From Bauldia sp. (lineage in GTDB: Bacteria; Pseudomonadota; Alphaproteobacteria; Rhizobiales; Kaistiaceae), in assembly GCA_026126065.1 (NCBI GenBank), contig JAHCJY010000002.1, positions 434,001-498,000 on the forward strand: DNA of 64,000 nt. The letters run 5' to 3'. The position numbers were made by a program, and so were the translations under genes. The notes under the pieces are model-generated. The model was not told the origin of the DNA and made no database searches. It saw only the letters and a program-made list of their open reading frames with translations. Each line of letters opens with the position of its first letter. Within the stretch, counting starts at the first letter, position 1. Below, in pieces: positions 7,229 through 53,359 of this stretch.

Positions 7229-8410
7229 GTGGCACTGCGGGATCAAACATTATTTGGCGTCATCGACGCGCTCGCTGTTGGACGTGCGGGCTGGACGGAC
7301 CTGGCGCTGGCGCTGCGAAATGCCTTTGGCGGACGTTATGCCTGGGCGCGGGTTCACAATGGCGACGGAACGCCGAGCCAGCAGATCCATGCGGCGGGCG
7401 ACTGGCAGGACGAGGGCCGCGCGCAGCGCTACCGGCACGGCCACTGGTCGGCCGACTTTCTGCTTGCGGCCCTGCTGACCGCACCCCCGGGCGAGCCCAT
7501 GCGGTGGTCGAGCCTCCATGCGCGCCCCGACATCGCCGAGGGCGAATACTACCGCGACTACATCCAGCCGCGGGACATCGATCATGTCATCGAATGCCTC
7601 GCGGTCGTTCCGAGCGGTCCGCTGATCCGCTTCGGCACCGGCAGGACCAAGGCCCAGCCCCCTTTCTCCAAGCGGGACGAGGAGCGCCTGCGGCGCGTGG
7701 CGCAACGTCTGCAGGGCGCGATCCGCATCCGCTACCTCAACACCGGCGGCGATTTCGGATTGAGCGACGGGATCGGCTTCGACCTCCTCCCGGAGGGTGT
7801 CGTCATGCTTGACGAGACCGGCAAGGCTTTCGCGGTCAATCTGGCGGCACGCCTTGCGCTCTCGAGGGTCCGAAGCCTTGCCATCATCGATGGCCGGCTG
7901 CACTGCCTCGGGGCCTCTGACGCCGGGTTGTCCCGGCTCATCGACGACGCCCTGCTGCAACGCCCGGCCGGCATCGTCGGCGAGATGGACGTATGCGCAG
8001 GGGACGGTCCGCAGCTCCGGATCCTCGTTGCCCGGATGCCGGTCGCAACCGGCTCCGACCGCGAGGTGCCGGTGATCATCCTGGGCGGCTATCGCGAGCC
8101 GGCAGCCACCTCGGAGGACATCTCGACCCTTGCCGGGCGATGGCGTCTGACGCCGAAGGAGGTCGAGATCGTGGTCAGGCTCGTCGAGGGCAGCAGCCTG
8201 GGCGCCGCCGCCGCGGCGATCGGGATCGCCTACGAGACGTCCCGCTTCCACCTGAAGAACATCTACCGCAAGGTCGGCGTGAACAATCAGGCCGCGCTCA
8301 CGCGCCTCTTCATCACCGACTACTACTGTTCGTCGGAGTGGCTCGGGCCGAGGCGAACCGACGAACGGCCGCGCCGGAGTGGCGAGCCCGCCCTGGCGCT
8401 GCCGAGCTAG
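7229..8410 (+). CDS. LuxR/NarL-type HTH regulator, stand-alone
   Basis: A 393-residue regulator with a C-terminal LuxR-type helix-turn-helix at about residues 308-372 (LTPKEVEIVVRLVEGSSLGAAA, then TSRFHLKNIYRKVGVNNQAAL). The N-terminal 300 residues resemble the PAS/GAF-like sensor part of many alphaproteobacterial regulators, but I recognise no autoinducer-binding pattern. The start is GTG at 7229, five bases after GGGAGG; a longer open frame from 7073 lacks such a site. It is divergent from ddl and opens the PQQ dehydrogenase block, so it is a candidate local regulator. No cognate kinase or synthase gene is adjacent. Confidence 0.85.
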   Translation: MALRDQTLFGVIDALAVGRAGWTDLALALRNAFGGRYAWARVHNGDGTPSQQIHAAGDWQDEGRAQRYRHGHWSADFLLAALLTAPPGEPMRWSSLHARPDIAEGEYYRDYIQPRDIDHVIECLAVVPSGPLIRFGTGRTKAQPPFSKRDEERLRRVAQRLQGAIRIRYLNTGGDFGLSDGIGFDLLPEGVVMLDETGKAFAVNLAARLALSRVRSLAIIDGRLHCLGASDAGLSRLIDDALLQRPAGIVGEMDVCAGDGPQLRILVARMPVATGSDREVPVIILGGYREPAATSEDISTLAGRWRLTPKEVEIVVRLVEGSSLGAAAAAIGIAYETSRFHLKNIYRKVGVNNQAALTRLFITDYYCSSEWLGPRRTDERPRRSGEPALALPS

Positions 8411-42881: not shown

Positions 42882-42906
42882 TCATCCCCGCGAAGGCGGG
42901 GACCCA
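42882..42906 (+). repeat. Palindromic intergenic repeat, intact copy
   Basis: Starts TCATCCCCGCGAAGGCGGGG and continues ACCCA: a CCCCGC/GCGGGG stem with a GAAG loop. The exact reverse complement can be rebuilt around the IS30 insertion at 43297-44352, and a diverged copy lies inside the hydantoinase gene at 50245. Its reverse-strand translation gives the familiar PAFA-MT peptide seen in many alphaproteobacterial pseudo-ORFs. Confidence 0.85.
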
Positions 42907-42940
42907 TCAAGGCAGAAGACCGGGGCCGAAGGCCCACAAA

Positions 42941-43231
42941 CTAGTGAAGGATTTCCTCGTAGAGATCCCGCCATTCCGGGTTCATCTCCCCGATCAGTCG
43001 AAGCTTCCAATCGCGATTCCACTTCTTGAGTTGCCGCTCGCGAGTGAAGGCAGCCTCGCGCGTTTCGACGGCCTCGTACCAGACCAGTATCTTGAGGCCG
43101 TAGGTCCTGGAAAAGCCCGGAAACACCCCTTCCCGGTGTTCGTAGATGCGACGACCGACGTCATCGGTGCTGCCGATGTAGAGCGTGCCGAACGGCCTGT
43201 TGCAGATGATGTAAACGTAGAACGGCTTCAT
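42941..43231 (-). CDS. Single-domain GIY-YIG nuclease-like protein
   Basis: 96 residues with the complete GIY-YIG core: YVYIICNRPFGTLYIGST (the two tyrosine strands), DDVGRRIYEHREG with the catalytic Arg, and VWYEAVETREAAFTRERQLKKWNR with the Glu helix. Such small UvrC-like or YhbQ-like proteins are common in alphaproteobacteria and their role is unsettled. It is flanked on both sides by inverted copies of the same palindromic repeat, 34 bases and 66 bases away, which suggests that gene and repeat form a unit. Confidence 0.93.
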   Translation of the reverse strand: MKPFYVYIICNRPFGTLYIGSTDDVGRRIYEHREGVFPGFSRTYGLKILVWYEAVETREAAFTRERQLKKWNRDWKLRLIGEMNPEWRDLYEEILH

Positions 43232-43296
43232 GCGCCCGCTCGGATGCCAACTACTGCCGTCTACATTGATTGTTCGGCTGCTGTCTCTTGTTAGGA

Positions 43297-43305
43297 TGGG
43301 TCCCC
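43297..43305 (-). repeat. Left part of palindromic repeat split by the IS30 element
   Basis: TGGGTCCCC; together with 44337-44352 (GCCTTCGCGGGGATGA) it rebuilds the full 25-base palindromic repeat in inverted orientation, identical to the copy at 42882-42906. Confidence 0.8.
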
Positions 43306-44331
43306 TGAGTTCTCAAACGAAGTGCAACACCCTCTTAGGGTGTTGGCATGGGACAGCGGTATCGACAGCTTGGTATTGAGGAACGGTGCGCGATTGCCCG
43401 CTTATCGGCCGAAGGGCGCACGATCCGGCAGATCGCTGCAGATCTGGATCGCTCGCCATCGTCGATTGCTCGAGAGCTGAAGCGGAACGGGAGCTCGGAG
43501 GGCTATCGGCCGACCTATGCCGGCGAGCAGGCTCAGGCGCGGCGATGGAGTGGCAGCAAGCTCGACCGTGACCCGAAGCTTCGACGGTTCGTCCTCGATC
43601 GCCTCGAGCTCGGCTGGTCGCCGGAGCAGGTCAGCGTCCAGTCGCGTGATGAGGGAGTGGCGCGGATCGGCGTCGAGACGATCTACCGCTTCATCCATGC
43701 CCAGATCGCCCGTCACAAGGATTACAGCTGGCGCAAATACCTGCCGCGAGCCAAGGCGAAGCGCGGCATCCGTCCGTCGAAGGGCGGCAGTCCGGCCCTG
43801 CACATGAGCCAGCGACGGCCGATCGCAGAACGGCCGCACGAGGTCGCCGATCGGCTCACTCCCGGCCATTGGGAGGCGGACCTCATGGCCTTCGCCCGCT
43901 ACGGCCAGAACATCCTCATGCTGCACGAGCGAACCAGTCGTGCCCTGGTCGGCACGAGGATCGCCAGCAAGCACGCCGAACCCATCGCACGCTCGATCCG
44001 CGACGCGCTCATCCCGCTGCCGGAGCCCCTGCGACGGTCACTGACCTTCGACAACGGCACCGAGTTCGCAAAGCACTACGAGCTCAATGCCGACGGCATC
44101 GCCACCTACTTCTGCGATCCGCACGCGCCATGGCAGAAGGGCGGCATCGAGAACGCCATCGGTCGGATGCGACGTCTCCTGCCCCGGAAGACCGACCTCG
44201 CAACTCTCGACGAGCATCGTCTCCAGCTCTTCCTCGCCGCCTACAACAACACCCCCAGAAAGTGCCTTGACTGGAAAACCCCAGCCCAGGCCTTCTCCGA
44301 ACTCCTGTTGCACTTCAAACGAGAATCCACC
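43306..44331 (+). mobile_element. IS30-family insertion sequence
   Basis: A 1026-bp element with one transposase gene. Imperfect terminal inverted repeats: left 43310-43329 TTCTCAAACGAAGTGCAACA, right 44306-44325, whose reverse complement is TTCTCGTTTGAAGTGCAACA (15 of 20 identical). The direct repeat TCCCC flanks it at 43301-43305 and 44332-44336 and is the likely target duplication. Removing the element and one TCCCC restores an exact inverted copy of the palindromic repeat at 42882-42906, so the target was that palindrome. Confidence 0.85.
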
Positions 44332-44352
44332 TCCCCGCCTTCGCGGGGATGA
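43348..44352 (+). CDS. IS30-family transposase
   Basis: 334 residues. N-terminal HTH (YRQLGIEERCAIARL, RTIRQIAADLDRSPSSIARELKRNG) and a DDE catalytic domain: Asp in GHWEADLM, Asp in LTFDNGTEF and Glu in GGIENAIGRMRR. All catalytic residues are present and the frame is open, so it may be active. The reading frame passes through the right inverted repeat and stops at TGA 44350-44352, which lies in host DNA, in the restored palindromic repeat; the last seven residues are thus supplied by the target site. Confidence 0.95.
   Translation: MGQRYRQLGIEERCAIARLSAEGRTIRQIAADLDRSPSSIARELKRNGSSEGYRPTYAGEQAQARRWSGSKLDRDPKLRRFVLDRLELGWSPEQVSVQSRDEGVARIGVETIYRFIHAQIARHKDYSWRKYLPRAKAKRGIRPSKGGSPALHMSQRRPIAERPHEVADRLTPGHWEADLMAFARYGQNILMLHERTSRALVGTRIASKHAEPIARSIRDALIPLPEPLRRSLTFDNGTEFAKHYELNADGIATYFCDPHAPWQKGGIENAIGRMRRLLPRKTDLATLDEHRLQLFLAAYNNTPRKCLDWKTPAQAFSELLLHFKRESTSPPSRG
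44332..44352 (-). repeat. Right part of palindromic repeat split by the IS30 element
   Basis: Duplicated TCCCC followed by GCCTTCGCGGGGATGA: the stem-loop half of the inverted repeat copy. Its end also supplies the stop codon of the transposase gene. Confidence 0.8.
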
Positions 44353-45051: not shown

Positions 45052-45077
45052 GTCGGTCTCCACCGCAGGATGAAAAA

Positions 45078-45467
45078 TGCCAGTTGGCCTGTAAGCCGGG
45101 TTCTGTATGGCGGCTTGCGCCGCGTGACGACCATTCCTCTGGGGCGGCCGTTGCCGGACGCCTCATGCAACCCACCCGGACGGCTGGCGCGGAAACGCAC
45201 CTGGGCCGAAGCCCGCGCCGTCCCTATTCGGTTTTGCTCCCGGTGGGGTTTACCATGCCAGTCCCGTTGCCGGTCCTGCGGTGGGCTCTTACCCCACCCT
45301 TTCACCCTTACCTTTGCCCGAAGGCTCCGGCGGTTTGCTTTCTGTGGCACTTTCCCTGGGGTCGCCCCCGCCGGGCGTTACCCGGCACCGTGTTTCCATG
45401 GAGCCCGGACTTTCCTCCACGGCGGCCTTTCGACCATTGCCGCAGCGGCCGTCCGGCCAGCTGGCCG
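45078..45467 (-). ncRNA. rnpB: RNase P RNA (type A)
   Basis: The catalytic RNA of tRNA 5'-end processing. On the minus strand the 5' conserved block GAGGAAAGTCCGGGCTCC, the GGTAACGCCCGGCGG region, AGGGTGAAAGGGTGGGGTAA and the 3' block ACAGAACCCGGCTTACAGG (ACAGAA being the universal CR-V start) are all present in order. The ends are set by helix P1: GCCAGCTGGCC at the 5' end pairs with GGCCAACTGGC at the 3' end with one mismatch. About 390 nucleotides. Several open frames crossing it on both strands are not genes. Confidence 0.95.
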
Positions 45468-48006: not shown

Positions 48007-48021
48007 CGCGCGACTCTAAAG

Positions 48022-48098
48022 GCGAATAGCGAGTAGCGAATAGCGAGTAGACGCGCACCTGCGCCAACCCTATTCGCTACTCGCTACTCCCTATTCGC
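48022..48098. repeat. Inverted heptamer array GCGARTA, copy 1
   Basis: Four tandem 7-mers GCGAATA/GCGAGTA (48022-48049) face four reverse-complement units TATTCGC/TACTCGC/TACTCCC (48071-48098) across a 21-base spacer, so the region can fold into a long hairpin. Its right edge is 15 bases from the start codon of the hydantoinase-type gene. A larger version lies at 53187-53345. Confidence 0.8.
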
Positions 48099-48112
48099 TC
48101 TCTTGCCGGCCC

Positions 48113-53119: not shown

Positions 53120-53186
53120 GCCCGTAGAATTGCCGCACGGGGGTTAAGGGAGCGTCAACCACGACCGCCCCCCAAGGCGGGCGAGA

Positions 53187-53345
53187 GCGAATAGCGAATA
53201 GCGAGTAGCGAATAGCGAGTAGCGAGTAGCAGGCGCCTACGACGGACGCGGCGCCGCCCCTTCCCTATTCCCTATTCGCTATTCGCTATTCGCTACTCGC
53301 TATTCGCTATTCGCTATTCGCTACTCCTCGCTACTCCCTATTCGC
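53187..53345. repeat. Inverted heptamer array GCGARTA, copy 2
   Basis: Six tandem GCGAATA/GCGAGTA units (53187-53228) face about eleven reverse-complement units (TATTCGC, TACTCGC and variants, 53266-53345, with one single-base slip near 53328) across a GC-rich spacer of 37 bases. Same unit and same inverted plan as 48022-48098. The right edge is 14 bases from the stop codon of the cation-efflux gene. Confidence 0.85.
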
Positions 53346-53359
53346 CTCTTCTCACCCCC

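Follow-up and report, generated by a model that had tools for sequence, protein, structure and literature searches.

The window analysed here, a stretch of 64,000 nucleotides from a Bauldia sp. contig, contains the gene of a small GIY-YIG nuclease with inverted 27-bp palindromes (REPs) on both sides, one of which is split by an IS30-family insertion (Table 1). The consensus of the window repeat is TCAT-CCCCGCG-NNN-GCGGGG-ACCCATC, the heads of both REPs point outward while their tails face the gene, and without the IS30 the arrangement of REP, GIY-YIG gene and inverted REP is about 450 bp long. When the duplicated TCCCC is counted a single time, the right REP is the exact reverse complement of the left. 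That an intact repeat and its reverse complement, rebuilt across the IS30, bracket the gene had been proposed in the initial annotation, and is confirmed by the sequence and by a second IS30 copy in the same genome (C6:121424; G000, locus L294). This copy is identical in sequence (1,026 bp, 0 differences) and has entered another copy of the window REP at the corresponding position, with TTCCC on each side. Because it sits likewise with its own 5-bp duplication, the reconstruction of the right REP and of the target duplication is sound. The IS30 is a secondary, later insertion into the REP, outside the unit, and it is a REP-targeting element, both genome copies (2/2) being at the same position of the window REP. 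In this it resembles the REP-targeting IS elements described earlier (Tobes and Pareja, 2006, PMC1525189), although IS30 is outside the five families named there and its insertion is secondary and unrelated to the unit.

Table 1. Features of the window at and near the GIY-YIG unit.
Feature	Position	Strand	Remarks
Left REP TCATCCCCGCGAAGGCGGGGACCCATC	42882-42908	+	CCGC just before; head (tag side) outward, tail toward gene; inverted pair I24
Inner hairpin GGGGCCGAAGGCCCAC	42922-42937		Immediately past the GIY-YIG stop codon
GIY-YIG nuclease gene	42941-43231	-	96 aa; Slx1/UPF0213-like single domain
Right inverted REP, first part GATGGGTCCCC	43295-43305	-	Interrupted by IS30
IS30-family insertion	43306-44331	+	1,026 bp; 5-bp target duplication TCCCC
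IS30 transposase reading frame as listed	43348-44352		Overruns the IS end; stop codon supplied by the REP
Right inverted REP, remainder TCCCCGCCTTCGCGGGGATGA	44332-44352	-	Head outward
RNase P RNA class A	45076-45464	-	Rfam RF00010, 299.9 bits
7-bp-based repeat GCGAATAGCGAGTA and complement	48008-48102 and 53180-53346		Tandem and inverted arrays, ~5 kb apart

The protein matches PF01541 as a single domain (Pfam; 55.6 bits against a cut-off of 22.6, 6.8e-15), which bears out the 96-residue GIY-YIG gene first annotated between the repeats; no other Pfam match and, in a search of NCBIfam, no match at all is obtained. Phage relatives of the protein were not found, and because neither PHROGs nor PADLOC yields a match, it does not count among known phage or defence genes. 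In alignments of 62-70 sequences, the catalytic residues Y7, Y18, H32 and E65 are invariant and R28 is conserved in at least 90%; also invariant is a block peculiar to the subfamily, K69-W71-R73-W75-K76...N84-D89 (KxWxRxWK...NPxWxD). The structure predicted for the window protein (pLDDT 96) has a fold closest to the UPF0213 structures 1zg2 and 1ywl and then to Slx1. Slx1 is a nuclease of branched DNA, and the predicted Slx1-like fold may therefore fit an extruded hairpin or cruciform as substrate, which is an inference from the model. The single-domain fold and the catalytic residues are shared with the standalone Slx1/UPF0213 enzymes (1zg2, 1ywl; PMC1564403), whereas the invariant block distinguishes the window subfamily, and in the paper by Dunin-Horkawicz et al. 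(2006, PMC1564403) no connection with palindromic repeats was seen.

The 3.46-Mb Bauldia genome (9 contigs) contains five PF01541 matches, namely four single-domain genes and uvrC, and all four single-domain genes are bracketed by palindromes that belong to three multicopy families of about 17-27 copies each, as far as pattern searches and loci, on which the genome-wide counts rest, can tell. The window repeat TCATCCCCGCGNNNGCGGGG is present in 14 exact copies and in 21 with at most one mismatch, the reversed control giving 0; its family has the head CCGCTC, with TCGTC variants, and also flanks a second GIY-YIG gene (L003, C6:163575). The third gene (L002) is bracketed by palindromes of the CGTCATYSCCGGGCTTGACCCGG type, a related pattern of which has 17 copies, and the fourth (L001) by GTCGTTCCG.GGCC.CG.AGCGGAACCCGGAACCC, with 27 copies, those at its flanks (C2:320079 and C2:320557) having the same orientation. 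Many copies of the window family form inverted, head-out, REPIN-like pairs about 80 bp apart, most of which have at their centre the inner hairpin GGGCCGAAGGCCC situated behind the GIY-YIG stop codon. In each of the eight pairs compared, the match covers roughly the final 50-60 bp of the window unit, with the inner hairpin and REP of its 3' end. A MITE has its ends in common with the transposon from which it derives, and the gene-less REPIN pairs, judged by their shared ends, stand in this relation to the window unit. Two traits of classical IS and MITE, inverted repeats at the termini and the existence of related non-autonomous copies, are thus both present. At loci L016 (about 1499-1526), L281 (about 1364-1392) and L142 (about 7266-7296) there are double-headed solo hairpins with a tag on both sides of one palindrome; these are rare and may represent target sites that are still empty or scars left by excision.

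It was examined whether the same arrangement recurs at loci selected by protein alone, comprising all single-domain matches listed in 61 relatives and the best 80 relatives that the window protein has in named genomes. With a family-agnostic score, that of the best local inverted repeat formed by the two 350-bp flanks of a gene, 74/142 GIY-YIG genes reach at least 40, versus 21/9,149 control positions of the same loci. In the enlarged, de-duplicated set this threshold is passed by 48/85 genes of the relatives and by 41/85 named database loci, versus 4/977 other genes (0.4%) and 3/331 small genes (0.9%); for relatives versus other genes, Fisher p = 8e-55. For uvrC the count is 0/20, with a top score of 24 where chance gives about 20, and among distant single-domain GIY-YIG genes 0/11 reach at least 34. 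Across the family (61 relatives and best 80 database loci), an inverted flanking repeat is present in 88/144 members, versus about 1% of other genes, and 126/144 have either an inverted repeat scoring at least 34 or a tagged REP or palindrome within 350 bp, leaving 18/144 in which neither test detects a flanking REP. These 144 genes are not fully independent but form 59 clusters at 60% identity, and in 51 of the 59 the first member has an inverted repeat of at least 34 or a tagged REP.

Tagged REPs occur at 3.2/kb within 250 bp of the gene and at roughly 0.15/kb beyond 500 bp. When only intergenic DNA is considered, their density is 4.61/kb within 350 bp of GIY-YIG genes and 0.31/kb elsewhere; 98/151 gaps adjacent to GIY-YIG genes contain a REP, versus 28/477 other gaps (p = 2e-49), and the nearest REPs of the two sides are mutually inverted in 53 of 67 cases. 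Because the tag rule was framed after the flanks and the published consensus were known, this density test is less independent than the family-agnostic one. It is also the comparison with other intergenic regions by which the initial annotation could have been refuted, and its outcome is strongly in favour of an enrichment. A chance association, in which REPs are simply frequent in the gaps between genes and small genes happen to sit in long gaps, draws on an intergenic REP density that is about 3 times the coding one at these loci; it is already refuted by the 15-fold higher REP density near the genes relative to other intergenic DNA, and by inverted flanks (score at least 40) in about half of the genes while other and small genes remain below 1%. 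The spaced motif of the initial annotation, encoded as CCCCGC-N4-GAAG-N4-GCGGGG, is not the true consensus; it occurs at chance level (6 matches in the window, 5.85 expected) and was replaced by the actual repeat.

The flank-positive genes are distributed over 12 phyla. Most flanks are CGTC-type REPs, for example CGTCATTCCCGCGAAGGCGGGAATCCAG, often 0-30 bp from the start or stop codon, and an unpaired CGTC head, a stem starting with AT, a loop of 4-5 nt and a CCA tail are found in most flanking REPs across phyla. Genes flanked in this manner occur in Alpha-, Beta- and Gammaproteobacteria, Bacteroidota, Omnitrophota, Chloroflexota, Nitrospirota, Spirochaetota, lineages of the candidate phyla radiation and others, and the pairing is also seen in records of S. 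meliloti, Rhizobium, Shinella, Sphingobium and Neisseria gonorrhoeae. It is weaker in Bacteroidota, where 5/15 genes pass and some others carry untagged hairpins. A sister GIY-YIG subfamily (L169, L171, L176, L177) has a different palindrome, CATCATCCTGAGGTGCCCGGCGAAGCCGGGCCTCGAAGGAGGGTCCAG, which contains CCTGAGG...CCTCGAAGGAGG. The connection originally suggested between single-domain GIY-YIG genes and palindromic repeats therefore holds for one subfamily, and for its sister with another palindrome, but not for every single-domain GIY-YIG gene. Among 61 genomes searched with two patterns, the median number of REPs is 31 where a single-domain gene is present and 5 where it is absent (p = 3e-4), and gene and REPs co-occur with a Spearman coefficient of 0.58 (p 1e-6), uncorrected for relatedness. 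Exceptions are G005, with 73 REPs and only uvrC in place of a single-domain gene, and G003, G037, G039 and G055, in which the gene is present with zero REPs of the two searched patterns.

The type of repeat follows the lineage of the protein. Mapped onto the protein tree, loop types A (GCGAAGGC) and B (CTTGAC) are clustered, with 17 changes, versus 30.3 when shuffled, and 0/500 shuffles are as low; this loop-type classification was used after a first automatic classification of REP types had been discarded as too crude. GIY-YIG genes more than 70% identical share a REP core, with a mean similarity of 0.9 or more between genomes, and paralogs within one genome usually have differing cores. Shuffling REPs among the paralogs of 15 multi-gene genomes is uninformative (350/1000 as high), and the contest between an own-genome paralog and a cross-genome relative is near even, with 10 wins, 8 losses and 5 ties. 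Because neither of these two tests is decisive, the case for specificity depends on the tree test and on the fact that paralogs differ in their repeats. The tree is built on 94 columns, with branch support that is modest, as expected, and the test does not fully separate protein lineage from host lineage. Within these limits, sequence comparison establishes the association of the GIY-YIG subfamily with inverted palindromes and the lineage clustering of repeat type. The same data bear on the possibility that the gene is merely cargo of an element moved by an unknown REP-recognising transposase, an arrangement which would agree with the fact that no strand-transfer activity is known for GIY-YIG enzymes. 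This is very improbable, because the same subfamily lies inside the unit in 12 phyla and repeat type tracks the protein, and a search of the Bauldia genome for Y1_Tnp (PF01797) is negative although the control search recovers PF01797 in E. coli. In addition, other transposases had been sought near CGTC REPs, with nothing but fortuitous associations as the result (Di Nocera et al., 2013, PMC3733652).

Alignments of related loci give good support to the view that the block of repeat, gene and repeat behaves as a unit. Orthologous sites may have it in either orientation or lack it, and it occurs in unrelated contexts. In several related pairs, homology runs from REP to REP over about 390 bp, reaching 66 bp beyond the gene upstream and 40 bp downstream, and then ends, the surroundings being unrelated. 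At an orthologous intergenic site of genus g9, the unit has one orientation in G023, G024 and G027 and is inverted in G022, and neither the gene nor an intact REP is present in G010, G014, G018, G019, G021 and G025; a previous assignment of the G022 and G024 units to different sites was wrong, since there is one site with the unit inverted. In the gap between fnrL and a response regulator gene on Sphingobium plasmids, the unit is present in four aligned strains, a double-headed hairpin in two and neither in two, and no target-site duplication is evident there. The hairpin of strains TomTYG64 and TomTYG74, CGTCACCCCGGG-TCAAG-CCCGGGGTGACG, is a fusion of the two outer halves, one from the left and one from the right REP. 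Shinella sites that lack the unit were rejected as a guide to its ends, the difference spanning too long a stretch, and a megablast with Rhizobium plasmid flanks did not give a series of empty sites, its matches being mainly to the downstream side.

The TomTYG64/74 hairpin, found where relatives have the unit, is what would be expected of an uninterrupted homing site, and a similar solo hairpin exists in the Bauldia genome (L016). It is therefore conceivable that the nuclease gene is a homing-like parasite which enters REP palindromes by cutting and repair copying, a guest and not the driver of REPs that spread otherwise; the Sphingobium unit carriers, which form a single clade beside the strains with the solo hairpin or with neither, would also agree with this. 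However, the older state at this site is unresolved, as is the direction of change, because simple deletion across the 8-bp direct repeat ACCCCGGG could also yield the solo hairpin. The flanking REPs are complete palindromes and not half sites, and the REPINs with the inner sequence of the unit and the lineage-specific repeats are better explained by the enzyme as driver. The unit shares with GIY-YIG homing endonucleases such as I-TevI and I-BmoI the catalytic superfamily and a possible entry into a palindromic target that is then interrupted, but it is intergenic, lacks an intron or NUMOD DNA-binding domain and has full palindromes on both flanks. Homing is accordingly an unlikely explanation, although not a negligible one.

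The Slx1-like fold might also suggest a nuclease that serves the host by trimming or resolving REP cruciforms and hairpins and is kept beside REPs for regulation without mobilising anything, and RAYTs too have been called domesticated (PMC8266576). The distribution of the gene is patchy, however, with several divergent copies per genome that often have their own repeat, units are found in unrelated contexts, and in Sphingobium TomTYG73 (L284) the gene is frameshifted by a 1-bp deletion and unannotated while its REPs are intact. Because this is the behaviour of a mobile element and not of a conserved housekeeping gene, a host function of this type is improbable.

The most probable interpretation, to which we assign a probability of about 0.7, is that the locus represents an autonomous REP unit in which the Slx1-like GIY-YIG nuclease serves its own palindrome family as dedicated enzyme, its role as driver and its mode of action being inferred. 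The enzyme would recognise the REP hairpin or cruciform and nick or cut it, and repair, or copying off another REP-flanked unit, would then spread REPs, REPINs and the gene; the IS30 is a later arrival, an element targeting the window repeat. Binding, cutting and mobilisation of REPs by the enzyme are all inferred, in the absence of biochemistry and of any witnessed transposition. GIY-YIG nucleases hydrolyse DNA and have no known strand-joining or strand-transfer activity, and the copying step would therefore need host repair. The unit is REPtron-like in plan but is not a RAYT. It shares with the REPtron of RAYT (TnpA-REP) a small enzyme gene between inverted REPs, a cognate REP in each lineage and REPIN pairs, and this agreement, together with the evidence of block movement, upholds the REPtron-like plan recognised in the initial annotation. 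It differs in its enzyme, an Slx1-like GIY-YIG protein with no HUH/Y1 domain instead of a Y1 HUH transposase, and in its REPs, which are of the CGTC type, whereas those of RAYTs are of the GTAG type.

Palindromes belong to the most frequent small repeats in bacterial genomes. For one half of them, the CGTC superfamily, which includes the Neisseria repeats, work published in 2013 found no dedicated enzyme, and a dedicated transposase was apparently lacking (Di Nocera et al., 2013, PMC3733652). The flanking REPs resemble this superfamily in tag, A-T stem start, 4-5-nt loop, CCA tail, paired arrangement and alphaproteobacterial bias, and the phyla listed in that study overlap those with GIY-YIG pairing; the differences are that the head of the window's own copy is CCGCTC and not CGTC, and that a dedicated enzyme is now proposed. 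A full-text search of the open-licence literature, preprints excluded, found no paper that links GIY-YIG proteins to REPs, REPINs or dRS3. The CGTC REP superfamily is large, and for its missing driver the GIY-YIG enzyme is a strong candidate. We also favour, though only slightly, the broader proposal that a GIY-YIG nuclease with two REPs constitutes a new class of minimal mobile element of about 400-500 bp, which drives CGTC REPs in many phyla, has REPINs as MITE-like offspring and arrived at its lifestyle independently of the HUH REPtrons. If this is true, two unrelated nucleases have converged on one lifestyle, abundant genes annotated merely as GIY-YIG nuclease acquire a role, and there is a reason for several divergent copies per genome. 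With a specific and conserved enzyme of 95 residues whose active site is intact and whose cognate palindrome is defined, the problem of the missing transposase becomes answerable at the bench.

At an orthologous site in two genomes (L264 in G016 and L270 in G012), the GIY-YIG unit of relatives is replaced by another hairpin-ended repeat of about 180 bp, CCCTCACCC...CTCTCCC / GGGAGAGGG...GGGTGAGGG. On plasmid p1 of Planktothrix agardhii (L279), a relative of the gene has a type IIL restriction-modification gene on one side and the DISARM gene drmA on the other, and is flanked by a larger inverted repeat of a non-CGTC type.
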